From contig JAHFMP010000002.1 in NCBI GenBank assembly GCA_023267795.1, positions 1 through 21,135 on the forward strand: 21,135 nt of DNA, read 5' to 3'. Position 1 is the first letter of the stretch. Each line of letters starts with the position of its first letter. The position numbers and the translations under genes are program-made. The notes beneath the pieces are model-generated. The model did no database searches, was not told the origin of the DNA, and saw only the letters and a program-made list of their open reading frames with translations. Source of the stretch: Candidatus Woesearchaeota archaeon (lineage in GTDB: Archaea > Nanobdellota > Nanobdellia > Woesearchaeales > DSVV01). Shown one piece after another: positions 439-20,463 of the stretch.

Positions 439-495
439 GGAGGAAAAATTCGTCATGAGGGCACGAAGTGTCTGAATGTTGAAATTTTTATTAAA
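439..495 (+). promoter_or_regulatory. uL14 leader: Shine-Dalgarno, palindrome, start codon
   Basis: A perfect GGAGG lies at 439-443, but the uL14 ATG is at 496, 52 nt downstream. Between them AAAAATT (444-450) can pair with AATTTTT (483-489). Inside, GCAC at 461-464 and GTGT at 468-471 flank a GAA loop (three Watson-Crick pairs plus a G-U). If this folds, GGAGG is 6 nt from the ATG. The leader also contains a six-codon open frame starting at ATG 455. The pairing is read directly from sequence; the effect on initiation is inferred. Confidence 0.6.
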
Positions 496-897
496 ATGAA
501 AGGATTGCGCGCAAATCTCACAAGACCGCTACCATTTGGAGCAACCATGGAAGTAGTGGATAATAGTGGTGCAAAAATCATCAGGTTGTTTACTGTCTAT
601 AAAATGAAAACAGTAAAAGGCAGAGTTACTGCTGGTGGTGTTAGTGATCTCATTATGGCAAACGTTATGAAAGGAAAGCCAGAAATGAAAAAAAAGAGTG
701 TCCTTGCTGTGATCATCAGGCAAAAGAAAGAATACAGGAGACAAGATGGATCTCGTGTACAATTTGAAGACAATGCTGCAGTAGTTGTTAAAGATAACAA
801 AGGAAATCCGCAGGGAACATTAATCAAAGGTCCTGTCGCAAAAGAGGTTTGTGAAAGATGGCCTGCAATTGCAAAAATCTCAACAATTATAGTATAA
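496..897 (+). CDS. rpl14: 50S ribosomal protein uL14
   Basis: The 133-residue product is archaeal uL14, a beta-barrel protein at the 50S subunit interface that contacts 16S rRNA and initiation factor 6. Diagnostic stretches are the VVDNSGAK block (about residues 20-27), the D-x-I-M-A-N-V segment, V-L-A-V-I-I-R-Q-K-K-E-Y-R-R (about 69-82), the F-E-D-N-A-A-V-V block (about 90-97), and the end G-P-V-A-K-E-V-x-E-R-W-P-x-I-A. Length and order are normal for archaea. The start at 496 fits the family N-terminus; the leader is unusual because the Shine-Dalgarno site is separated from the ATG by a palindrome. Confidence 0.96.
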   Translation: MKGLRANLTRPLPFGATMEVVDNSGAKIIRLFTVYKMKTVKGRVTAGGVSDLIMANVMKGKPEMKKKSVLAVIIRQKKEYRRQDGSRVQFEDNAAVVVKDNKGNPQGTLIKGPVAKEVCERWPAIAKISTIIV

Positions 898-918
898 ATA
901 AAATATAAAATAATACAT

Positions 919-937
919 GGAGTGTGAAATTTTTATA
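919..937 (+). promoter_or_regulatory. uL24 leader, version without palindrome
   Basis: The leader reads GGAGTGTGAAA immediately followed by TTTTTATA and then ATG at 938. The same two blocks flank the 2843-2925 leader of uS8, where a palindrome separates them. The GGAG is 15 nt from the ATG with no strong hairpin in between, although GTGA at 924-927 gives a 10-nt spacing. It looks like the empty or deleted form of the leader seen at uL14, uS8 and eL32. Confidence 0.55.
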
Positions 938-1327
938 ATGAAAAAAAAATGGTCATCAAGCTGGAAAGCAAGTATACAGCCGCGAAAGCAGCGTAAATAT
1001 AGAAAAAATGCTCCATTGCATGTAAAGAGGACAATGCTTCATTGTCACATTGCAAAAGATTTGAGAAAAAAATATGGTACCAGAAATAGAAGTCTGAGAA
1101 CTGGAGATAAAGTTAAAATCCTTGTTGGAGATTTCAAAGGCAAGGAAGGAAAAGTGAGTGCTATAAATACAAAAAAATTGAAAGTGTATATTGAGGGCAT
1201 CGAGCATATAAAAAAAAATGGTTCAAAAGTCAGAATACCTCTCGAGCCATCTAATTTGATGATTACAATGCTTGAAAAAGAGGATAAAAGGATCAAAAGA
1301 ATCAAAAAAGCAGTGGCAAAAACATGA
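938..1327 (+). CDS. rpl24: 50S ribosomal protein uL24
   Basis: The 129-residue archaeal uL24 carries an N-terminal S-S-W-K-A-S-x-Q-P-R-K-Q-R-K-Y segment, the archaeal/eukaryal extension, followed by a KOW domain with G-D-x-V-K-I-L-V-G-D-F-K-G-K-E-G-K-V at about residues 55-72. It binds domain I of 23S rRNA and starts 50S assembly. An in-frame ATG exists at 917, but the family starts at the K-K-K-W-S-S-S-W block, so 938 is preferred. Its TGA overlaps the ATG of eS4 by 4 nt (ATGA at 1324-1327), which suggests translational coupling. Confidence 0.95.
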   Translation: MKKKWSSSWKASIQPRKQRKYRKNAPLHVKRTMLHCHIAKDLRKKYGTRNRSLRTGDKVKILVGDFKGKEGKVSAINTKKLKVYIEGIEHIKKNGSKVRIPLEPSNLMITMLEKEDKRIKRIKKAVAKT

Positions 1328-2025
1328 AAAGGCACTTAAAACGATTAGCAGCACCCGCAACTTGGAATATCAAGAGAAAGAGCACAAAATTCATTGCAAG
1401 GCCATTTCCAAATGGGCATTCAATGCATCTATGTATTTCTCTTAATGTATTCATGAAAGAAATTGCAGGCTATGCAAAAACAACAAAAGAAGTCAAAACA
1501 ATTTTGCATAATAAACCCATTTTAGTAAATGGAAGAAGAAGAACAGATCATAGAAGTGCTGCTGGTTTTCTTGACGTTATTGAAATAGGTGATGCAACTG
1601 AAGCAGTTCGTGTAATCATCGATAGCAAAGGAAAAATAGGATATATTAAAATTCCGGCAAAAGAAGCAGCACTTAAGGTTTGTAAAATAATAGGAAAAAA
1701 ATTAATCAGGGGAAATAAACAGCAGCTAAATCTCAATGATGGGCAAAACTTCCTTGTTACTGGTGCAGAAAAATACAATGTAGGAGATTCTGTTGTCGTA
1801 GATATAAAAAACAATAAATTAGGAGAACATTTGCCGTTTGGCAAAAATGCAACAGTGTTTTTAATAGGTGGAAAACAAATAGGGTATCTCGGAAAAATAA
1901 TTGATATAAATAGTGAAAAAGTAATTATTCAATTACAAACTAAAGATAGAGAAGAATACAAAACAGGCAAAGAAAGCATCTTTGTTGTGGGAAAGGATGA
2001 TCATCCTATTATAACAGTTCAATAA
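1324..2025 (+). CDS. rps4e: 30S ribosomal protein eS4
   Basis: The 233-residue protein is the archaeal/eukaryal eS4, absent from bacteria, and one of the clearest signs that this is archaeal DNA. It begins M-K-R-H-L-K-R-L-A-A-P-x-x-W, has the S4-type RNA-binding block with V-L-V-N-G-R-x-R-T-D-x-R-like residues (about 66-78) and a D-V-I-E-I motif, and ends with a KOW-type region (I-G-Y-L-G-K-I, about 190-196) and H-P-I-I-T-V-Q. The start overlaps the uL24 stop by 4 nt. A 19-bp tandem duplication follows, which includes the stop codon. Confidence 0.96.
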   Translation: MKRHLKRLAAPATWNIKRKSTKFIARPFPNGHSMHLCISLNVFMKEIAGYAKTTKEVKTILHNKPILVNGRRRTDHRSAAGFLDVIEIGDATEAVRVIIDSKGKIGYIKIPAKEAALKVCKIIGKKLIRGNKQQLNLNDGQNFLVTGAEKYNVGDSVVVDIKNNKLGEHLPFGKNATVFLIGGKQIGYLGKIIDINSEKVIIQLQTKDREEYKTGKESIFVVGKDDHPIITVQ

Positions 2026-2048
2026 AAGGATAACAGTTCAATAACAGG
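2011..2048 (+). repeat. 19-bp tandem duplication over the eS4 stop codon
   Basis: Bases 2011-2029 and 2030-2048 are the same 19-mer (ATAACAGTTCAATAAAAGG and ATAACAGTTCAATAACAGG), with one difference. The first copy encodes the last residues of eS4 (I-T-V-Q) and its TAA stop; the second repeats the stop downstream. It looks like a recent slippage duplication. It pushes uL5 slightly further from eS4 without changing either protein. Confidence 0.9.
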
Positions 2049-2065
2049 CTCAGGGGGCTATAAAA

Positions 2066-2581
2066 ATGAATAGTATGAAAAGGATTCAAATTGAAAAAAT
2101 AACACTCAATATCGGAGCAGGAAAAGACCAGAAAAAGCTTGAAAAAGGGATACTTCTCTTGAAGCATATTACTGGAATAGAGCCTGTCAAAACAGTAACT
2201 CAAAAAAGAATTCCAACATGGGGGTTGCGTCCTGGATTACCTATAGGATGTAAACTCACAATCAGGGATCCAGTAATGATGAAAGATTTACTTACAAAAT
2301 TTTTCAAGGCAAAGAACAATGCATTGCAACAAAGTCAAGTAGATGAAAATGGAAACATTTCCTTTGGAATTCACGAATATATTGATATTCCTGGGATACA
2401 GTATAGTCCTGAAGTTGGAATTATGGGATTTGAAGTGTGTGTGACATTAAAACGTCCTGGATTTCGAGTCAAAGTAAGAAAAATACAAAAGAGAAAGATA
2501 AAAAAAAGTCACAGAATATCAAGGCAGGAAGCAATGGAGTTTATGAAAAAAGAATTTGATGTCACAGCAGTTGAAGAATAA
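2066..2581 (+). CDS. rpl5: 50S ribosomal protein uL5
   Basis: This 171-residue protein is uL5, which binds 5S rRNA with uL18 in the central protuberance and contacts P-site tRNA. Typical blocks are [16 protein letters not shown] at the N-terminus, [18 protein letters not shown] near residues 40-56, [13 protein letters not shown] near 95-107, and the [17 protein letters not shown] block. A GGGGG run about 10 nt upstream can act as the ribosome site. ATG 2075 is a possible internal start, but M-N-x-M fits the family. Confidence 0.95.
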
Positions 2582-2595
2582 CAAGGGGAACTAAA

Positions 2596-2826
2596 ATGAC
2601 ATATAGCTATTACAAAAAAGCATTAAAGCAGTTGAAAAACAAGCAAAACAAACTGAATAAATTTATCAAGCATAATGCACCAAAAGAAAGAACAACAGGT
2701 CAGGCAAGATTTCGATGCAGGCGCTGCTTTCGAACAGGTGCCTTCATCAAAAAATATGGCTTGAATTTGTGCAGGCAATGCTTTAGAGAAATTGCTCCAA
2801 AAATCGGCTTTAAAAAATTCCATTAA
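2596..2826 (+). CDS. rps14: 30S ribosomal protein uS14, zinc-binding
   Basis: The C-terminal half is the compact archaeal uS14 with the zinc ribbon C41-R-R-C44 and C59-R-Q-C62, followed by [12 protein letters not shown]. The protein is 76 residues, about 20 longer than the shortest archaeal uS14; the first 30 residues are lysine/glutamine-rich and end in [15 protein letters not shown] (2584-2588) provides a ribosome site ahead of the ATG, and no later ATG would preserve the domain. uS14 helps form the 30S head near the decoding region. All four zinc cysteines are present, in contrast to eL34 in this window. Confidence 0.94.
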
Positions 2827-2842
2827 AAAACAAAAAACAACA

Positions 2843-2925
2843 GGAGTGTGAAAAATCCTTCAAGAGCATCGCCATACACGAACGAAGTGAGTGTACAGGC
2901 ATCTGCGAATGTTGGGATTTTTATA
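2843..2925 (+). promoter_or_regulatory. uS8 leader: Shine-Dalgarno, palindrome, start codon
   Basis: GGAGTGTG (2843-2850) is 75 nt or more from the uS8 ATG at 2926. AAAAATCC at 2851-2858 is perfectly complementary to GGATTTTT at 2915-2922 (8 bp). Inside, TACAC (2875-2879) pairs with GTGTA (2891-2895) around a CGAACGAAG-type core. Folding would leave four bases (TGTG) on one side and three (ATA) on the other between GGAG and ATG, a 7-nt spacing. The intervening frame is open from GTG 2848, so a 26-residue extension cannot be excluded from sequence alone, but it would not fit the family N-terminus. Confidence 0.65.
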
Positions 2926-3318
2926 ATGACAGTAAATGATCCAATGGCAAATGTGTTTTCAAATATTATGAATTGTGAAAAAATAGGAAAGAATCAAGTC
3001 CTTGTAAAACCATCATCTAAACTCATCAAAAAAGTTTTGACATTATTGCAAGAGAAACGCTATATCGGAGCTTATGATGAAATCAAAGATGGCAGGGGGG
3101 ATATTCTCAACATTGCATTAATTGGTGCAATAAATATCTGTGGAGTAATTAAGCCACACTATTCTGTAAAATTAAACAACTATACAAAGTATGAAAAAAG
3201 ATACCTTCCTGCAAATGGCTTTGGAATTTTAGTAGTATCAACTCCAAAAGGAGTAATGACTCATGAACAAGCAAAAGAACAAAAGCTCGGAGGCAGATTA
3301 TTGGCATATTGCTATTAA
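2926..3318 (+). CDS. rps8: 30S ribosomal protein uS8
   Basis: With the ATG at 2926 the product is 130 residues, the usual archaeal uS8 length. It starts M-T-V-N-D-P-M-A-N-V-F-S-N-I, where the D-P-x-A-N-x-L/F-x-x-I block is the family signature, and ends with the T-P-K-G-V-M-T-H-E-Q-A-x-x-x-x-x-G-G-R-L-L-A-Y region. uS8 binds the central domain of 16S rRNA and is a primary 30S assembly protein; in bacteria it can also repress its own operon by binding its mRNA. Whether the palindromic leader here has such a role is unknown. Confidence 0.95.
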   Translation: MTVNDPMANVFSNIMNCEKIGKNQVLVKPSSKLIKKVLTLLQEKRYIGAYDEIKDGRGDILNIALIGAINICGVIKPHYSVKLNNYTKYEKRYLPANGFGILVVSTPKGVMTHEQAKEQKLGGRLLAYCY

Positions 3319-3368
3319 TAGATGATATAAATAAAATGTAAGAGAAGCTGGAAAAAATGTGAGAATAG

Positions 3369-3908
3369 ATGAAAGTAAAAAATTATAGGGAGGAAATAAG
3401 TGTCCCTGAAGGGACAATAGCACACGTAAGTGATACAATGATATCTATCACAAAAGGAAAAGCAACACAAAAGAGGGAATTTAGAGATCCGCGCCTCTCA
3501 CTAAAGGTAGAAAATAATATGATTTTACTTGAAGTTCCAAAAATGACAAAAAAGGAAAAGATGCTTGCTGGAACTATTGCTGCTCACATTAAAAACATGA
3601 TAAAAGGTGTAAATCAACAATATGTTTACAAATTAAAGATATGCTCTGGCCACTTTCCGATGAACATCACGCTTGCAGGAAAACAATTTTCTGTGAAAAA
3701 TTATGTTGGAGAAAAAGTGCCAAGAGTATTGGAAATAATGGATGGTGTAGAAATAAAGATAGATGGAAATGATATTACAGTAACAAGTGTTGACAAAGAA
3801 TCAGCAGGTCAAACAGCTGGTGCCATTGAATTACTTTGCAGAAGACCAGGATTTGACACAAGAATCTTCCAGCAGGGAATTTACATTATAGAAAAACCAG
3901 GAAAATAA
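3369..3908 (+). CDS. rpl6: 50S ribosomal protein uL6
   Basis: The 179-residue product is archaeal uL6, which has two tandem alpha/beta domains and lies near the factor-binding site and sarcin-ricin loop. Features include the N-terminal I-S-V-P-E-G block, the archaeal H-I-K-N-M-I-K-G-V segment (about residues 73-81) and Y-V-Y-K-L-K-I, H-F-P-M-N-I, and the C-terminal R-P-G-F-D-T-R-I-F-Q-x-G-I-Y motif. GTGAG at 3359-3363 may be its ribosome site. Its TAA stop (3906-3908) is the first triplet of a 14-bp perfect palindrome. Confidence 0.95.
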   Translation: MKVKNYREEISVPEGTIAHVSDTMISITKGKATQKREFRDPRLSLKVENNMILLEVPKMTKKEKMLAGTIAAHIKNMIKGVNQQYVYKLKICSGHFPMNITLAGKQFSVKNYVGEKVPRVLEIMDGVEIKIDGNDITVTSVDKESAGQTAGAIELLCRRPGFDTRIFQQGIYIIEKPGK

Positions 3909-3937
3909 AATTTGAAGCACAAAGTGCTTCAAATTTT
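3906..3937. repeat. Palindrome starting on the uL6 stop codon
   Basis: AAAATTTGAAGCAC (3907-3920) and GTGCTTCAAATTTT (3924-3937) form a perfect 14-bp inverted repeat around a 3-base loop. The left arm overlaps the TAA stop of uL6. Only TGAATAAACGG follows, not a T-run, so it does not look like a simple terminator inside an operon. It shares its plan (TAAAAT-type end, GCAC/GTGC at the loop) with the elements at 10095 and 12230. Possible roles are mRNA processing, 3'-end protection, or a mobile palindromic repeat. Confidence 0.8.
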
Positions 3938-3945
3938 GAATAAAC

Positions 3946-3999
3946 GGAGAGTGAAACAATTTTCCATCAGTGCATTGCAGGAATGTGAAAATTTTTAGT
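3946..3999 (+). promoter_or_regulatory. eL32 leader: Shine-Dalgarno, palindrome, start codon
   Basis: GGAG (3946-3949, within GGAGAGTGA) is 50 nt from ATG 4000. AATTTTC (3958-3964) pairs with GAAAATT (3987-3993), and two more A-T pairs are possible outside one mismatch (3955-3956 with 3995-3996). TGC/GCA around an ATT loop (3971-3979) caps the structure. Folding would leave 8 nt between GGAG and ATG. It sits directly behind the perfect palindrome at the uL6 stop, so two hairpins fill this gap. Confidence 0.6.
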
Positions 4000-4596
4000 A
4001 TGAATATACAAAAATTATTAAAAATCAAAAAAGAAAAGCTGGCAAAACAGCCAGCATTTTTAAGACGAAATTTCAAGAAAAATAAGAGAACAAGAGTGTC
4101 TGGAAATTGGCGTGCACCAAAAGGATTGCATAATAAGCTGAGAAGAAGAAGGCGTGGCATTGGCCAATGGGTTATGCCGGGATATAGAATGCCTGTTGCT
4201 GTTCGCGGATGCACCAGACAAGGATTATTGCCTGTTGTTGTCGAAAATATGACACAAATGCAAACACTTGATGCAATAAAACATATTATTATAGTAAAAA
4301 AAAGTGTTGGTAAAAAGAAAAGAGTGCAGATAGTAAAGGAAGCAGAAAAAAAGAATATACAAATTAGTGGTATAAAAGACCTTGCTGGCTATGTCAAAAG
4401 CATAGAAGAACAAATGGTACAAAATAAAAAATCAAAGAAAAAATACAAAAAAGAAGCTACTAAAAAAATAGAAGAGAAAAGAGAAATAGAAAAAAATAAC
4501 GAAATAAAGAACGAAGAAAAAACAGAAAAAAATGCAGATGAAACAGCAAAACAAGAACAAAAAGAATTAAATAAAATTCTTACAAAGAAAGAATAA
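4000..4596 (+). CDS. rpl32e: 50S ribosomal protein eL32 with charged C-terminal tail
   Basis: The N-terminal ~125 residues match archaeal/eukaryal eL32: R-R-N-F-K-K-N-K-R-T-R-V-S-G-N-W-R-x-P-K-G near residues 22-42, R-R-R-R-R-G-I-G near 48-55, and G-Y-R-M-P-x-x-V-R-G (about 61-70). Family members are about 130-150 residues; this one is 198, and roughly the last 55 residues are low-complexity lysine/glutamate with no family match. The tail may be disordered and rRNA-binding. GTG 3970 in frame would add ten residues, but ATG 4000 fits the family and the leader structure better. Confidence 0.93.
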   Translation: MNIQKLLKIKKEKLAKQPAFLRRNFKKNKRTRVSGNWRAPKGLHNKLRRRRRGIGQWVMPGYRMPVAVRGCTRQGLLPVVVENMTQMQTLDAIKHIIIVKKSVGKKKRVQIVKEAEKKNIQISGIKDLAGYVKSIEEQMVQNKKSKKKYKKEATKKIEEKREIEKNNEIKNEEKTEKNADETAKQEQKELNKILTKKE

Positions 4597-9815: not shown

Positions 9816-10097
9816 ATGGTAGCGCCACGATATAGATCACGGTCAAAGCGACGAGTTTATGTTAGAACACCTGGTAGTATAACAAAAATTCAATACAGAG
9901 CACGAAATCCAAAGCTTGGAACATGTCCTGTGACAGGACAAACATTGAAAGGAGTTCCGCGTGCCTCTACAGTAAAAATGCGAACACTTGCAAAAACCAA
10001 AAAACGACCACAGAGACCGTATGGTGGTGTTTTATCCAGCAAAGCAATGAGACGTGTTGTTATTAATGAAGCGCGCGCTTTATCGCAGTTAGAATAA
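9816..10097 (+). CDS. rpl34e: 50S ribosomal protein eL34, zinc cysteines largely lost
   Basis: The 93-residue protein begins P-R-Y-R-S-R-S-K-R-R-V-Y-V-R-T-P-G, the eL34 signature, and continues with L-K-G-V-P-R and K-R-P-Q-R-P-Y-G-G-V-L (about residues 70-80). Most archaeal eL34 proteins have two CxxC pairs that bind zinc. Here the first position reads C-P-V-T-G and the second pair is replaced by S-S-K-A, so only one cysteine is left and zinc binding is unlikely. It has its own TATA box after the DUF106 gene. The stop TAA is the first triplet of a palindrome. Confidence 0.92.
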   Translation: MVAPRYRSRSKRRVYVRTPGSITKIQYRARNPKLGTCPVTGQTLKGVPRASTVKMRTLAKTKKRPQRPYGGVLSSKAMRRVVINEARALSQLE

Positions 10098-10132
10098 AAT
10101 CCTAACATTCACTTCGTTCATGAAGGATTTTA
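10095..10132. repeat. Palindrome starting on the eL34 stop codon
   Basis: TAAAATCCT (10095-10103) and AGGATTTTA (10124-10132) form a perfect 9-bp inverted repeat; CAT and ATG pair further in, around a CACTTCGTT core. The first three bases are the eL34 stop. Downstream sequence is A-rich rather than T-rich. Same plan as the elements at 3906 and 12230. Confidence 0.75.
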
Positions 10133-10168
10133 GAAAAAATTATATTAAGACAAGAGAAAGATGAAAAT

Positions 10169-10486
10169 ATGGGAATATTTGAAGTAGGAAGAGTCTGCAT
10201 GAAAATAGCAGGCAGAGATGCAGGAAAGAAATGTGTTGTAGTAGAAGTCATAGACAGCAAAACAGTTCTTATTGATGGCGAAACACGGAGAAGAAAATGT
10301 AATATTGCACATCTTGAGCCTTTGGAGTTGTCTTTTGATATTGAATCTGGTGCTGATAATACAACTGTTGTCAAAGCTTTGAAAGAACAAGGTATTATTT
10401 GTAATGAGAAGAAAGCATCACAGAAGCAGGAAAAGCCACGACCAAAGAAAGAGAAAGTTGTGAAGAAAAAAGCAGCTGCAAAATAA
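10169..10486 (+). CDS. rpl14e: 50S ribosomal protein eL14
   Basis: The 105-residue product is archaeal eL14. It starts F-E-V-G-R-V-C-M-K-I-A-G-R-D-A-G-K-K-C-V-V-V, a KOW-type SH3 barrel, then D-S-K-T-V-L-I-D-G, R-R-R-K-C-N-I-A-H-L-E-P-L and a lysine-rich tail (the last ~25 residues). It lies on the large-subunit surface near the intersubunit bridges. It is the last gene of the + strand block and converges on pheT with 21 nt between the two stops; no clear terminator is visible there. In many archaea cmk and truB are nearby; they are absent here. Confidence 0.93.
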   Translation: MGIFEVGRVCMKIAGRDAGKKCVVVEVIDSKTVLIDGETRRRKCNIAHLEPLELSFDIESGADNTTVVKALKEQGIICNEKKASQKQEKPRPKKEKVVKKKAAAK

Positions 10487-12190: not shown

Positions 12191-12229
12191 TGTATTTGTT
12201 TTTACTCTTTTTTGTTTTTTTCATTTCAC

Positions 12230-12271
12230 TAAAATTCTCCATTAGCACGAAGTGCGAATGTGAGAATTTTA
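12230..12271. repeat. Palindrome starting on the pheS stop codon
   Basis: TAAAATTCTC (12230-12239) and GAGAATTTTA (12262-12271) form a 10-bp perfect inverted repeat; inside, CATTAGCAC and GTGCGAATG pair with one mismatch around a GAA loop, giving a nearly continuous ~19-bp stem. Read on the - strand, its first three bases (12271-12269) are the TAA of pheS. No T-run follows on the - strand. It lies between pheS and pheT. Confidence 0.8.
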
Positions 12272-13846
12272 TTTCATCCATATTTTCATCTGTTGCAACT
12301 GTTTCATATCATTTTTGTACAAATCGCGAATATCAGTAATGTGGTAGTATTCAGAAATAATTCGTTCCAAACCAAGACCCCATGCAAGCACAGGAACATC
12401 TTTACCCAGCAACGGAACAACAACTTCTGATCGAAATATGCCTGCACCACCTAACTCAATCCACTGATTTTTAATAGGGTGCCAAGCTTCTACTTCAAGT
12501 GATGGTTCTGTATAAGGAAAATAAGCAGGCCGCATCCTGATTTGTGTATATCCCATTTTTCCAAAAAACTGTCGCAGATATGCTTTGAGATTCTTTAAAT
12601 TCGCAGTTTCATCAATAACAATACCATCTACTTGATGGAATTCAAAAAGATGCTTCCAATCCATTGCTTCGTTTCTAAAAACTTTTCCAACATTAAAATA
12701 TTTTATTGGGAGTTTTTTGTGAAGAGTTTTTGGATATTCTCCAAGCTCTGCTAATTTCAATGCACTCAGTACAGTAGTGTGTGTTCGCAACAGAACTTTT
12801 TGTGATTCTTTTTCATGCCATGTTGTCTGCCATCCAGTACTTCCTGTTTTTGCCCCTGTTTCATGAACTTCTTTGATTTTTGCAAAATCTTTTGGTAATT
12901 TCCCTAGTGCAATTCCTTTTCCTGTCTCATCTTTAATAAAAAAAGTATCCTGCATTTGCCTGGCTGGGTGGTCTTGTGGCACAAAAAGAGAATCAAGGTC
13001 CCAGTAAGAAGTCTGAAGTAATTGTCCAGTCATCTCAACAAATCCCATGTCAAGCCAAATTTGCTTAATGTAAGAAATCGCTTGGTTCACAATGTGTCTT
13101 TTACCTCCTGAAAGATGCGGCACATTAATGCTTACATCATAATGGCGAAATATATTGTGTTTCCAACTATTGTTAGAAAGCATTTCAGGAGTAAGTTGTT
13201 CAACAAATTCTTTATTTAGATCATATGTGAGAAGTGTCAAGCCTAACTGTGTAAGATGCGCAGTCCGTAATTTGATGACATTTGTTTTAACAATATTTTT
13301 TCGTTGAGAAAGTTCAGTGAAAATTATTTTTTCTTCAGGAGATAGTTCCTTCATATCTCTTGGAAATTCTAAAGAATGCAAAAATGCTTCTTCTTTTGTT
13401 TGTTTTTTGAAAAGCAGTTGTCCTTCTGCTGTTGCATGAACAAGAATTTCATTGCCTTCTTTTTTAAGCGTGATAGCATTTCTTTTTCGAAGCAAACCAA
13501 TGCATATCGTTATTTCATTCTGATCTAGGCAGCTGTTTTTTTGGACGTCAAAAATAGAAATTGGTACAGAAACACTTTCCAGTGATTTCAAAAATTGTTT
13601 TTCAGGCAATCCTTTTTCTGCATAGAGTTTTCCATTGGCATCAAGCTCAACAACCTCTTGAATTGTTTGTGTAATTAAAACAATCCCTTTATTTTGCAGC
13701 CATTGCAATGCGCGCATAACTTCTACTTCCTGCAAGCCGCTGGCACTAACAAGTTCATGCAATGTAGTTAATTTATCCAAATATGGAAGCACTTTTCGTT
13801 CTAATGGATGCAACTTTGCAATCAATGCTTCAATAGCTTGGTTCAT
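12269..13846 (-). CDS. pheS: Phenylalanyl-tRNA synthetase alpha subunit, archaeal type
   Basis: The 525-residue protein has N-terminal winged-helix-like tRNA-binding domains (about residues 1-220) and a class II catalytic core: D-H-P-A-R-Q-M-Q-D-T-F-F (motif 1/substrate region, about 300), F-N-V-G-K-V-F-R-N-E-A-M-D (motif 2) and G-A-G-I-F-R-S-E...A-W-G-L-G-L-E-R-I (motif 3). The frame is open for 26 more residues upstream, but ATG 13846 is chosen because a TATA box at 13869-13877 lies about 26 nt ahead, predicting a leaderless mRNA, and because the extension would overlap the promoter. It pairs with pheT downstream. Confidence 0.95.
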   Translation of the reverse strand: MNQAIEALIAKLHPLERKVLPYLDKLTTLHELVSASGLQEVEVMRALQWLQNKGIVLITQTIQEVVELDANGKLYAEKGLPEKQFLKSLESVSVPISIFDVQKNSCLDQNEITICIGLLRKRNAITLKKEGNEILVHATAEGQLLFKKQTKEEAFLHSLEFPRDMKELSPEEKIIFTELSQRKNIVKTNVIKLRTAHLTQLGLTLLTYDLNKEFVEQLTPEMLSNNSWKHNIFRHYDVSINVPHLSGGKRHIVNQAISYIKQIWLDMGFVEMTGQLLQTSYWDLDSLFVPQDHPARQMQDTFFIKDETGKGIALGKLPKDFAKIKEVHETGAKTGSTGWQTTWHEKESQKVLLRTHTTVLSALKLAELGEYPKTLHKKLPIKYFNVGKVFRNEAMDWKHLFEFHQVDGIVIDETANLKNLKAYLRQFFGKMGYTQIRMRPAYFPYTEPSLEVEAWHPIKNQWIELGGAGIFRSEVVVPLLGKDVPVLAWGLGLERIISEYYHITDIRDLYKNDMKQLQQMKIWMK

Positions 13847-13868
13847 AAGAAGAAAAGAGGTGTGAAGG

Positions 13869-13877
13869 TATATAAAA
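13869..13877 (-). promoter_or_regulatory. TATA box for pheST
   Basis: On the - strand TTTTATATA (13877 to 13869) is a strong archaeal TATA box centred about 27 nt from the A of the pheS ATG, so transcription should begin at or next to the start codon. It lies only 7 nt beyond the stop of the trmB-like gene, so pheST can be transcribed independently of it. Confidence 0.65.
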
Positions 13878-13884
13878 GTTACTT

Positions 13885-14700
13885 CTACTTCAACACTTTC
13901 CCTGCAGGCTTCATTTCCAACCACGCAATGTTGAAAAGATCATGCATTGCTGTTGCAAAAAAAGGAGTGTTGATCCATATACCAATATCATACGTTGGAT
14001 GGACATCCTGATCATCAAGAACCATAAAAATAATTTCTTTATTGTCAACAATACAAAATCGCGCCAATGCATCTGTATGGCGAATATCTGCAACATCACC
14101 TAAATCCTTGACACTACCTATGTTCTCTTTTGTTAATGGTGCTGCAATGCGAATTTTCACGCCTCGCTTTTTGATTTTCTCGAGCGTTTGTTTTAATCCT
14201 TCAATCTTGCGAACTAATCCTTGTGCTGTTGTCATAATAATTACAGATTCTTCAGCGTTTCTAATTGTTAACTCCAAATGATTATACAAATTATGCCGTC
14301 CACGCAAACTGCCAGAAAGATCTGCTGGTTCAATAAGATCAATTCCCTGCGTGTGAAGATTAGTAAGTTCACCAACAAGCTCTGTGCCCTTCATATCTTC
14401 CAGGCGTTTGATGCGATCTTCTGTTTCTGTCTTCATATTTTTCTTCACTCGCTCAACAACTTCTGCTGGCGCTACAGCAAGGTACTTAATTGGTTTGCCA
14501 AGTTTCATCACAACAAAACCTTTCTTTTCCAAACTTTCAAGAACATCATAACTCCTGCTACGCGGTACATTTGCAATGTCACTCAACTCACCTGCAGTAG
14601 AAACTCCTCTGGATAATAATGCTGCCCAAATCTTCACTTCATACAAATTCAAGTGAAAATAACGCCGTAGTTTGCTTAAAAATTCTTCTTTTACTATCAT
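13885..14700 (-). CDS. TrmB-family transcriptional regulator
   Basis: The 271-residue protein has an N-terminal winged helix-turn-helix (about residues 10-75) with L-N-L-Y-E-V-K-I-W-A-A-L-L-S-R-G-V-S-T-A-G-E-L, then N-V-P-R-S-R-S-Y-D-V-L-E-S-L-E-K-K-G-F-V, typical of TrmB. A charged helix (about 85-110) leads to a C-terminal effector-type domain with I-R-I-A-A-P and D-I-R-H-T-D-A-L-A-R-F-C-I-V-D-N-K, similar to the PLD-like domains of TrmB relatives that sense sugars or other ligands. A GTG at 14715 is in frame, but GGAAGGTGTG just before ATG 14700 supports that start. The ligand and targets are unknown; pheST or the divergent thiF-like gene are candidates by position only. Confidence 0.85.
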   Translation of the reverse strand: MIVKEEFLSKLRRYFHLNLYEVKIWAALLSRGVSTAGELSDIANVPRSRSYDVLESLEKKGFVVMKLGKPIKYLAVAPAEVVERVKKNMKTETEDRIKRLEDMKGTELVGELTNLHTQGIDLIEPADLSGSLRGRHNLYNHLELTIRNAEESVIIMTTAQGLVRKIEGLKQTLEKIKKRGVKIRIAAPLTKENIGSVKDLGDVADIRHTDALARFCIVDNKEIIFMVLDDQDVHPTYDIGIWINTPFFATAMHDLFNIAWLEMKPAGKVLK

Positions 14701-18582: not shown

Positions 18583-19656
18583 ATGAAATCAATCCAAATT
18601 GCCCCATCAATCTTAGCCCTCGAAAACCTGAACAATCTTGAATCAGAACTCTACACACTCGAGCAAGCAGGAGCTAATATTATTCACATTGATGTGATGG
18701 ATGGCATCTTTGTCGAAAACAAAACTCCATTTCTTGATCCTGCAACCATTGCAAGAGTCAAAAGTGCAACAACTCTTTCAGTAGATGTACACCTCATGGT
18801 GCAAGAACCAGAAAAATATGTTGATGGCGTCATAAGTGCAGGAGCAGATATGATCTCTCTTCATTGTGAAAGCAATGGAAATCATAATGAAACAATAAAA
18901 AAAATACAAAAAGCAGGAAGAAAAGCAGGAATTGCAATAAATCCAACAACAAACATGGAAAAAGCTCTTCCATTTTATGAGAACGCAGATTTTATTCTTG
19001 TCATGACAGTTGTTCCTGGTAGAGGAGGTCAAGAATATATCGAAGTAGTGAATGAAAAGATACAAAAATTAAGAGCATTATTTCCAGAAAAAGATATTGA
19101 AGTTGATGGTGGTCTAAAACAAGCTACTGTACATCTTCCAATAAATGCAGGAGCAAATATCATAGTGAGTGGTACAGGTATTTTCAACACTCAAAATTAC
19201 AAAGAAACAATACAAAAAATGAAACAAGCAATCATTATTGGTGCAGATCACGCCGGTTATCAGTTGAAAGAAAAAGTAAAACAATGGCTGGAAGAACAAA
19301 AGCAAAGTATTATTGATGTAGGTACAAATTCTGAAGAAAGTTCTGATTATCCTGATTTTGCAAAAAAAGTTGCAAAATCAGTAAGCAAGGATGCAACAAA
19401 AAAAGGGATTTTAATTTGTGGCACAGGAATTGGAATGAGCATTGCTGCAAATAAATATGAAAATGTCCGAGCAGCGCATGTTACTTCTGTATATGAAGCA
19501 GAAATGGCAAAAAAGCATAATGATGCGAATATTCTTTGTCTTGGTGCAAGAACAACACGTGTAGAAACAGCAATACAATGCATTGAAAAATGGCTTTGTT
19601 CTGAATTTGAAAGAGGAAAGCACGAAAGAAGAGTTGAGAAGATTGAATCTCACTAA
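18583..19656 (+). CDS. Fused ribulose-phosphate 3-epimerase and ribose-5-phosphate isomerase B
   Basis: Two enzymes are joined in one 357-residue frame. Residues 1-215 are an Rpe TIM barrel: P-S-I-L (8-11), H35-I-D37-V-M39, V-H70-L-M72, P-G-R-G-G-Q (145-150) and E-V-D175-G-G, with S196-G-T at the phosphate site. Residues 216-357 are RpiB: G-A-D222-H223-A-G-Y, D-Y-P-D, catalytic C279 in L-I-C-G-T-G-I-G-M-S-I-A-A-N-K, H312-N-D-A-N, and G-K-H-E-R-R-V near the end. Together they interconvert ribulose-5-P, xylulose-5-P and ribose-5-P. The usual P-G-F-G-G-Q reads P-G-R-G-G-Q here. Archaea more often use RpiA, so bacterial origin is possible. Confidence 0.92.
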   Translation: MKSIQIAPSILALENLNNLESELYTLEQAGANIIHIDVMDGIFVENKTPFLDPATIARVKSATTLSVDVHLMVQEPEKYVDGVISAGADMISLHCESNGNHNETIKKIQKAGRKAGIAINPTTNMEKALPFYENADFILVMTVVPGRGGQEYIEVVNEKIQKLRALFPEKDIEVDGGLKQATVHLPINAGANIIVSGTGIFNTQNYKETIQKMKQAIIIGADHAGYQLKEKVKQWLEEQKQSIIDVGTNSEESSDYPDFAKKVAKSVSKDATKKGILICGTGIGMSIAANKYENVRAAHVTSVYEAEMAKKHNDANILCLGARTTRVETAIQCIEKWLCSEFERGKHERRVEKIESH

Positions 19657-19900: not shown

Positions 19901-20242
19901 TCAATTCTCTGGAACTTCTATAACTATTCTTCTTTTATTTTCAGGATGCATATACACTTGTGCTCCTTTCTTGAGCTTGAGAAAGTCTATCATCTTCTTA
20001 TTAATAACGAGTGCAAGAGAGGAGCCTACTTGAATGACTGTTCCATGTGCATCAAGGTTCCAGAGTCCTTTTTTCTTTGCAACTTCATCAATTGCATCGG
20101 ATGTTTTTTCATCAAAGATTTCTTCTCCACATTTTGTGCATACTTCTGCTGGAAAAAAGCCAAGGCTTTCTCCATAAATTTTGAATTCTACTTTTTTCTC
20201 TACAATCTTTCCACTACACTCTTCGCAGCTTGTTCTTTTCAT
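19901..20242 (-). CDS. YgiT-type zinc-finger antitoxin with AbrB-like domain
   Basis: The 113-residue protein has an N-terminal zinc finger C6-x2-C9...C35-x2-C38 with F-F-P-A-E-V-C-T-K-C-G-E-E-I as in YgiT/MqsA N-termini, and a C-terminal half (about 60-113) with V-I-Q-V-G-S-S-L-A-L-V-I-N-K and L-K-L-K-K-G-A-Q-V that looks like a SpoVT/AbrB swapped-hairpin DNA-binding domain. MqsA itself has an Xre-type HTH there. The frame is open upstream to 20287, but ATG 20242 follows GGTG at 20248-20251 and starts the family block M-K-x-x-x-C. It lies 11 nt after the toxin gene and probably neutralises it and represses the operon. Confidence 0.82.
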   Translation of the reverse strand: MKRTSCEECSGKIVEKKVEFKIYGESLGFFPAEVCTKCGEEIFDEKTSDAIDEVAKKKGLWNLDAHGTVIQVGSSLALVINKKMIDFLKLKKGAQVYMHPENKRRIVIEVPEN

Positions 20243-20253
20243 GTTGACACCAT

Positions 20254-20463
20254 TTACTCTATAAACACAGTTTTTATTTTGTAACAATTCTCTCCAATCT
20301 TTTTATATGCTACTTTGATATATGTGAACGATGCTAAATAACCCTCTGTTTGTTTACTCTTTGCGCCGCGTTCAATTGCCAGTTTTATTTGTTCTTTCGT
20401 TATGCCATGAATAACCATCTTTTCTTTTGCATGCTTTGTTAAAATAATCTCAATTTCAGGCAT
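20254..20463 (-). CDS. DUF4258-type putative toxin
   Basis: The 69-residue protein reads I-I-L-T-K-H-A-K-E-K-M (residues 6-16), then H-G-I-T-K-E-Q-I-K-L-A-I-E-R-G, K-Q-T-E-G, and Y-K-K-I-G-E-N-C-Y-K-I-K-T-V-F-I at the end, the usual pattern of DUF4258 proteins (compact RelE/MqsR-like fold) found as toxins beside YgiT-type antitoxins. The conserved histidine H11 in T-K-H-A is present. Toxin-first order and the 11-nt gap match mqsRA-like operons. Such toxins are mRNA interferases in characterised cases; activity here is inferred. Confidence 0.8.
   Translation of the reverse strand: MPEIEIILTKHAKEKMVIHGITKEQIKLAIERGAKSKQTEGYLASFTYIKVAYKKIGENCYKIKTVFIE

Follow-up and report, generated by a model that had tools for sequence, protein, structure and literature searches.

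How can a ribosome begin translation where the Shine-Dalgarno (SD) motif lies far upstream of the start codon and a palindrome fills the gap? This question is raised by the leaders of three ribosomal protein genes, uL14, uS8, and eL32, which sit in a ribosomal protein operon on a 21,135-nt stretch of DNA from a Candidatus Woesearchaeota archaeon (contig JAHFMP010000002.1, positions 1–21,135; this whole stretch is the window, its numbering is used below, and its own genome is designated G000). All three hairpins belong to one family of dispersed palindromic repeats, a member of which stands, in many genes, exactly between the SD and the start codon. We propose that this mobile-type repeat has probably split many ribosome-binding sites, at which the ribosome would initiate from the distal SD while the hairpin is looped out, as happens at genes 38 and 25 of phage T4.

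The three leaders are listed below, with the genes identified by Pfam and the repeat copies by the covariance model R1; the pairing probability is the highest for any base pair joining the segment that follows the SD to the segment that precedes the ATG.

439–443, + strand: SD GGAGG of uL14, read from the sequence
442–491, + strand: forward repeat copy bridging the uL14 SD and ATG (496), arms 444–450 and 483–489; R1 match E 1.3e-7, pairing probability 0.82
496–897, + strand: uL14 gene (PF00238)
2843–2846, + strand: SD GGAG of uS8, read from the sequence
2849–2924, + strand: forward long-form repeat copy bridging the uS8 SD and ATG, arms 2851–2858 and 2915–2922; R1 match E 2.8e-7, pairing probability 0.90
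2926–3318, + strand: uS8 gene (PF00410)
3946–3949, + strand: SD GGAG of eL32, read from the sequence
3953–3998, + strand: forward, weakened repeat copy between the eL32 SD and ATG, arms 3958–3964 and 3987–3993; R1 match E 1.1e-7, pairing probability 0.05
4000–4596, + strand: eL32 gene (PF01655)

The initial annotation had described a distant SD, an inverted repeat in the gap, and a downstream ATG in each leader, and all of its coordinates agreed with the sequence. When folding was compared with that of shuffled sequences, the leaders of uL14 (z −3.15; none of 200 shuffles equally stable) and uS8 (z −2.01; 7 of 200) stood out, whereas that of eL32 did not (z −0.67; 42 of 200), its best structure being other than the bridge. 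Distances of 6, 7, and 8 nt after folding had also been put forward, counted from the last G of the SD. Counted from the GGAGG register with the longest uninterrupted arms, the spacing was 6 nt for uL14, as proposed, and 6 nt for uS8, close to the proposed value, but 13 nt for eL32, where the earlier figure requires crossing a C·U mismatch.

A dispersed palindromic repeat

The repeat is mostly 42–50 nt long, with a long form of about 75–83 nt, and its consensus consists of arms AAAAATYCTT..AAGRATTTTT flanking a CATGA..GAATG core, in which a tandem GA mismatch was seen by inspection. A pattern search of G000 gave 10 matches at eight places, two of which resemble unrelated coding sequence, against none for a reversed-pattern control. 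The R1 model, built from eight copies, gave 36 matches in G000 at E ≤ 5, 23 of them under 0.005, with 150 of 360 first-look candidates scored. Over 36 copies, 93.8% of 648 cells were paired, and two-sided changes occurred in 111 cells; shuffles gave 28.3 and slid alignments no more than 21. Covariation in sets of 36 and 38 copies was strong against both controls, although the copies are kin and the counts are not independent events.

To map the spread of the family, R1 was applied to 20 relatives, with 148–150 candidates scored per genome. The congener G002 (Woesearchaeota metagenome-assembled genome (MAG) NC_groundwater_1851) yielded 113 matches at E ≤ 0.5 and 112 at E ≤ 0.05, across 61 stretches; the congener G001 yielded three weak matches (E ≤ 0.5), and the 18 other relatives gave none at E ≤ 0.5. 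A second covariance model, built from bridged leaders and run on 287 genomes of the order with 18 candidates scored per genome, so that weak families may be missed, found five genomes at E ≤ 0.01, namely, the three congeners, G095 (0.0023, chance-like), and, through a single contig, G255. In named genomes, a pattern scan returned 44 stretches, 42 of them from Candidatus Woesearchaeota NC_groundwater_1851_Pr3_B (JACRKI); the window's own genome may be outside that listing. The other two were single contigs of other Woesearchaeota MAGs, possibly mis-binned, one of them the G255 contig. Two short contigs from other Woesearchaeota MAGs (L195, JACQXV010000223; L176, JACRKJ010000024) bear one good copy each, through either mis-binning of the contig or transfer. 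Weak copies also stand ahead of apparently the same reading frame in G000 (L252 1501–1557, C88) and G001 (L255 1501–1557, C8), hinting that the repeat is older than the split from G001. This distribution is what a lineage-specific palindromic repeat would leave if it had spread in one woesearchaeotal genus, lodging beside the edges of coding regions.

Some copies in G002 form doublets. Among 24 close pairs (neighbours within 200 nt), 21 were inverted with the ends that face coding sequences (CDSs) outward, two were inverted the other way, and one lay on the same strand, so that some intergenic regions read as stop codon, reverse copy, A-rich linker, SD, forward copy, and ATG, as seen between uS14 and uS8 and between uS8 and uL6 of G002. 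Pairing of doublet partners into one long duplex was not supported (inner stems 0.551 alike in 21 doublets vs 0.592, standard deviation 0.168, in random pairs), nor was concerted evolution of the long form, whose similarity of 0.86 and 0.86 within genomes was too near the 0.83 between them to support a claim.

Placement at coding-region edges and putatively bridged start codons

We classified 26 of the 36 matches of G000 and the 112 matches of G002 (E ≤ 0.05). Eighteen of the 26 G000 copies and 47 of the 112 G002 copies were forward and ended beside an ATG, compared with 1 and 4 that did so in reverse orientation. In a placement test of G002 (called CDSs of at least 80 amino acids, window of −6 to +12 nt, 24,400 random intergenic placements), the GAATG-side end of 26 of the 112 copies fell at a CDS start and that of 28 at a stop (random, 3.7% and 3.5%), and the other end at one start and one stop; 13 copies lay more than half within a called CDS. 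An SD of at least 5 nt or GGAG was found at the far foot in 31 of 47 ATG-flush copies of G002, compared with 2 of the 65 others, and in 14 of 18, compared with 0 of 8, in G000.

Because reverse-orientation copies adjoin stop codons, the repeat is not only a translation-start device. Two such copies occur in the window, both running opposite in sense to the neighbouring upstream gene:

10093–10134, − strand: reverse-orientation repeat copy adjoining the stop of frame 9816–10097 (presumably eL34) and preceding frame 10169–10486; R1 match E 1.2e-7
12228–12273, + strand: repeat copy adjoining the stop of minus-strand frame 12269–13924 (which we take to be pheS) and reverse relative to that gene; R1 match E 3.6e-9

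A perfect 14-bp palindrome of unrelated sequence at 3907–3937, which begins inside the uL6 stop codon, occupies the kind of site where G002 has reverse repeat copies. At L068 1501–1546 (C82 of G000), a near-consensus reverse copy lies right behind a GGAG-preceded ATG and can be read as the first residues, KKILTFALRALEGFLS, of an open frame.

The hairpin precedes many core genes. In G000 these include uL14, uS8, eL32, eL37, uL22, uS2 (with a long leader), eL40, FtsZ, Spt4, FttA, and proteasome alpha, among others, together with eL39 (identified by likeness). Copies with an SD at the foot precede uS8, uL6, eL32, eL37, uL22, Spt4, and FttA in G002 (identified by likeness to G000), as well as eL18, eL31, uL4, uL16, uS13, uS19, eL39, SecE, RpoP, an A-type ATP synthase subunit, topoisomerase VI A, an SRP54/FtsY GTPase, RuBisCO, and others; the identities of eL40, RpoP, SecE, and eL39 rest on matches under the curated cut-off. 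The SD was judged by eye to be further upstream or weak at the foot for eL24, a thermosome-type chaperonin, eL40, SBDS, Rrp4, and an Rpb7-type subunit.

The geometry was measured on those ATG-flush copies whose hairpin foot carries an SD (15 in G000 and 32 in G002), with folded spacing taken over Watson-Crick-only arms. In the linear mRNA, the SD of these 47 leaders is too distant, with gaps of 41–80 nt in G000 and 44–85 nt in G002 (41–85 nt overall). The predicted folded gap had a median of 6 nt in G000 and 5 nt in G002, lying at 3–7 nt in 12 of 15 and at 4–7 nt in 27 of 32 leaders, and the pairing probability reached 0.5 or more in 12 of the G000 and 29 of the G002 leaders (41 of 47 together); a functional distance would thus be restored in the predicted folds, with the window's eL32 as an exception. 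No alternative SD of at least 5 nt was found close to the ATG in 46 bridged genes, and four had one of 4 nt (GTGA). The possibility that the hairpin is translated as an N-terminal extension was rejected, as 41 of 49 leaders carry an in-frame stop between the hairpin start and the ATG and the leader is thus not coding.

From this geometry, the retention of the SD, and the lack of another SD, we infer initiation at the distal SD. The mRNA hairpin would fold, and the 30S subunit would hold both the SD and the AUG, one at each side of it, across an effective gap of about 4–7 nt plus the width of the helix foot. After insertion, the fold would have to be kept, because the old SD could not otherwise reach the AUG.

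Conservation of the hairpin and rival explanations

The hairpin is shared by G000 and G002 at the starts of ten orthologous genes (nine by protein comparison, and eL39). The SD is kept at the foot in both genomes for 8 of the 10 pairs; the HAD gene of G002 has lost it, and G002 eL40 has it further upstream. Uncompensated arm changes had been named in the initial annotation as evidence that would refute the bridge. Across nine leader pairs with 81 outer-stem positions, 63 were identical, 10 had changed on both sides and were paired, 4 had changed on one side and were paired, and 4 were unpaired in one or both genomes; the bridging idea largely withstands this check. The clearest compensated pair is that of FttA (TTAAATCCAC/GTGGATTTAA against AAAAATTCTC/GAGAATTTTT). 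In uS8, uL22, and one gene of unknown function, a long hairpin in one genome corresponds to a short one in the other, suggesting that the element turns over in place.

Leaders devoid of the hairpin were found for uL14 and uS8 of G001, proteasome alpha of G002, and uL6 and uL24 of G000. The G001 uS8 leader reads GAGGAG-AAAAAA-ATG, an empty site. In the window, the corresponding feature is as follows:

919–940, + strand: uL24 leader, hairpin-less, with GGAG and flanks typical of bridged leaders, read from the sequence

Here the GGAG lies 15 nt from the ATG, and a deletion scar or an empty site is possible. The likeness of the window's uL24 and G002 proteasome alpha leaders to leaders lacking the element is also what an intron-like insert would give, if it were removed from the mRNA, for example by tRNA splicing endonuclease, since excision would give ordinary SD–ATG spacing back. 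We consider such removal highly improbable, as inspection of the consensus revealed no bulge-helix-bulge and the same element occurs at stop codons, where removal has no obvious use.

Several observations weigh against initiation across a looped-out hairpin. No bridge formation is predicted for the eL32 hairpin of the window. A geometry-only scan, that is, a sequence-blind search for SD, arms, and ATG with the expectation taken from dinucleotide shuffles, found four cases in the window (uL14 and uS8 included, eL32 not), compared with 3.6 expected. The scan discriminates poorly, because an excess was seen not only at the G002 locus (4 vs 0.6 expected) but also in G006 (5 vs 0.0) and G011 (9 vs 3.2), and it was dropped as evidence, the window count being no better than chance. 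The earlier argument that three independent cases speak against chance was thus abandoned: the cases are not independent, and they exceed chance because they are homologous copies of one repeat dispersed in its own genome and a congener. Among the 47 ATG-flush copies of G002, 13 lacked an SD match at the foot, two had TGAT only, and some of the frames are short and doubtful. The folded gaps are slightly under ordinary G002 spacing (40 of 71 long SD-bearing frames, their starts unverified, have 7–9 nt), and the helix foot would need to supply the difference. Several genes of the window operon have no clear SD by eye, so SD-independent initiation is possible. In G002, the mean number of outer-stem pairs formed, of eight, was 7.85 in copies with a start codon and SD, 7.87 in stop-flush copies, and 7.87 in others, while the core motifs CATGA and GAATG were kept in 36 and 37 of 38 stop-flush copies compared with 30 and 32 of 33 start copies with SD.

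Because stems are equally intact away from start codons, the compensatory changes are evidence that the palindrome is maintained but do not identify translation as what maintains it. With the stems of G002 intact in non-bridging copies and the core kept in opposite-sense copies, palindrome conservation cannot be credited to translation alone, and a DNA-level or replicative cause is likely. This constraint, together with the reverse copies at stop codons and the single kind of inverted doublet that makes up 21 of 24 close pairs, would suit a tolerated selfish repeat that inserts at coding-region edges where initiation is SD-independent and the hairpin has no bridging role. We regard that explanation as unlikely, in view of the concentration of strong SDs at the foot of ATG-flush copies in G002, their retention in most orthologous pairs, and the unequal core in G000, where CATGA was found in 1 of 6 stop-flush copies vs 11 of 16 start copies with SD (GAATG, 5 of 6 vs 14 of 16). 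Evidence pointing to translation comes from the SD, in its retention and its placement, and from the near-normal spacing after folding. A variant with five A/T closing pairs was typical of G002 copies with an SD (24 of 33) and less frequent in stop-flush copies (7 of 38) and the others (5 of 31), which fits either an adaptation or a subfamily.

The conserved core with its tandem GA mismatch might alternatively be a regulatory element, a target through which a protein or a condition would switch translation genes as one regulon; ribosomal protein genes make up 6 of 15 bridged genes in G000 and 12 of 32 in G002, as raw counts. The initial annotation had likewise suggested that initiation on the folded leader might respond to temperature or protein. 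We give the regulon possibility little credence. G002 copies whose transcription runs in the opposite sense keep the core just as well, the targets include transporters and unknowns too, and Rfam gave no match in the window at curated scores and, at E ≤ 1 on the stretches L137 and L040, one match under its cut-off and outside the repeats.

Taken together, these data make the folded leader that restores the SD–AUG distance, proposed at the outset by analogy with T4 gene 38, the best-supported explanation, although an incomplete one, given the non-independent cases, the reverse copies at stops, and the weak eL32 hairpin. More tentatively, the element may be a mobile palindrome that prefers exact CDS edges, splitting ribosome-binding sites and being skipped via its own fold in one orientation and capping stop codons in the other, with the whole lineage depending on such folds to start many ribosomal and core genes.

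Elsewhere in the window, frame 18583–19656 fuses a ribulose-phosphate 3-epimerase domain to an RpiB-type isomerase domain (Pfam), and two small neighbouring genes at 19901–20463 (− strand), one with a DUF4258 match under its cut-off, have a layout like that of a toxin-antitoxin pair.

Comparison with known systems

The closest mechanistic match is provided by the split ribosome-binding sites of T4, where RNA structure is described as shortening the SD–AUG gap from 22 to 5 nt in gene 38 and from 27 to 11 nt in gene 25, and mutations destabilising the structure as reducing initiation (PMC3014915). As in these genes, a structure between SD and AUG, here predicted, shortens an over-long gap. In contrast to those single phage leaders, one repeat family stands here at the starts of dozens of genes of cellular archaea, with many core genes among them and gaps of 41–85 nt. 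A long leader hairpin is also present in E. coli thrS, which the ribosome is said to accommodate without unfolding (PMC3936740). Only a single gene is concerned there, unlike in our case. The thrS hairpin reportedly lies upstream of the SD and not between SD and AUG. To our knowledge, split ribosome-binding sites are single leaders only (T4 genes 38 and 25, thrS), and we found no account of such a repeat family in open-licence papers, judged by titles and abstract openings in a search that was not exhaustive.

As a repeat, the family comes closest to REP elements and REPINs, described as short imperfect palindromes in many copies, mostly extragenic and forming inverted doublets (PMC3116915, PMC3733652); both the repeated extragenic palindrome and the inverted doublets are seen here. 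Unlike the elements so described, the present family sits beside start and stop codons, and by inspection no GTAG or CGTC terminal tag occurs in the consensus drawn from 36 and 38 copies. The RAYT Y1 transposase domain PF01797 had no match in G000 and one in G002 (both genomes are incomplete), and the 9,072-base contig with the latter carried no repeat match at E ≤ 1; a Y1 transposase as the mover was set aside, as it was not linked to the copies. Translational bypassing elements (byps) are mobile-type hairpin inserts inside reading frames that the ribosome passes over in elongation. The present repeat resembles byps as a mobile-type hairpin insert that the ribosome would have to pass, and differs in lying before the start codon. 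Byps occur in Magnusiomyces mitochondria (PMC8211752).

If our proposal is true, translation of core genes in an archaeon would start routinely through a family of split sites, and the case would show how a repeat can enter the short stretch separating SD from AUG while the gene survives. The bridged leaders would offer dozens of natural replicates for testing what the 30S subunit of an archaeon does with a hairpin in that position. Annotation is affected as well, since a start codon that seems to lack an SD at normal spacing may have one on the far side of a hairpin.

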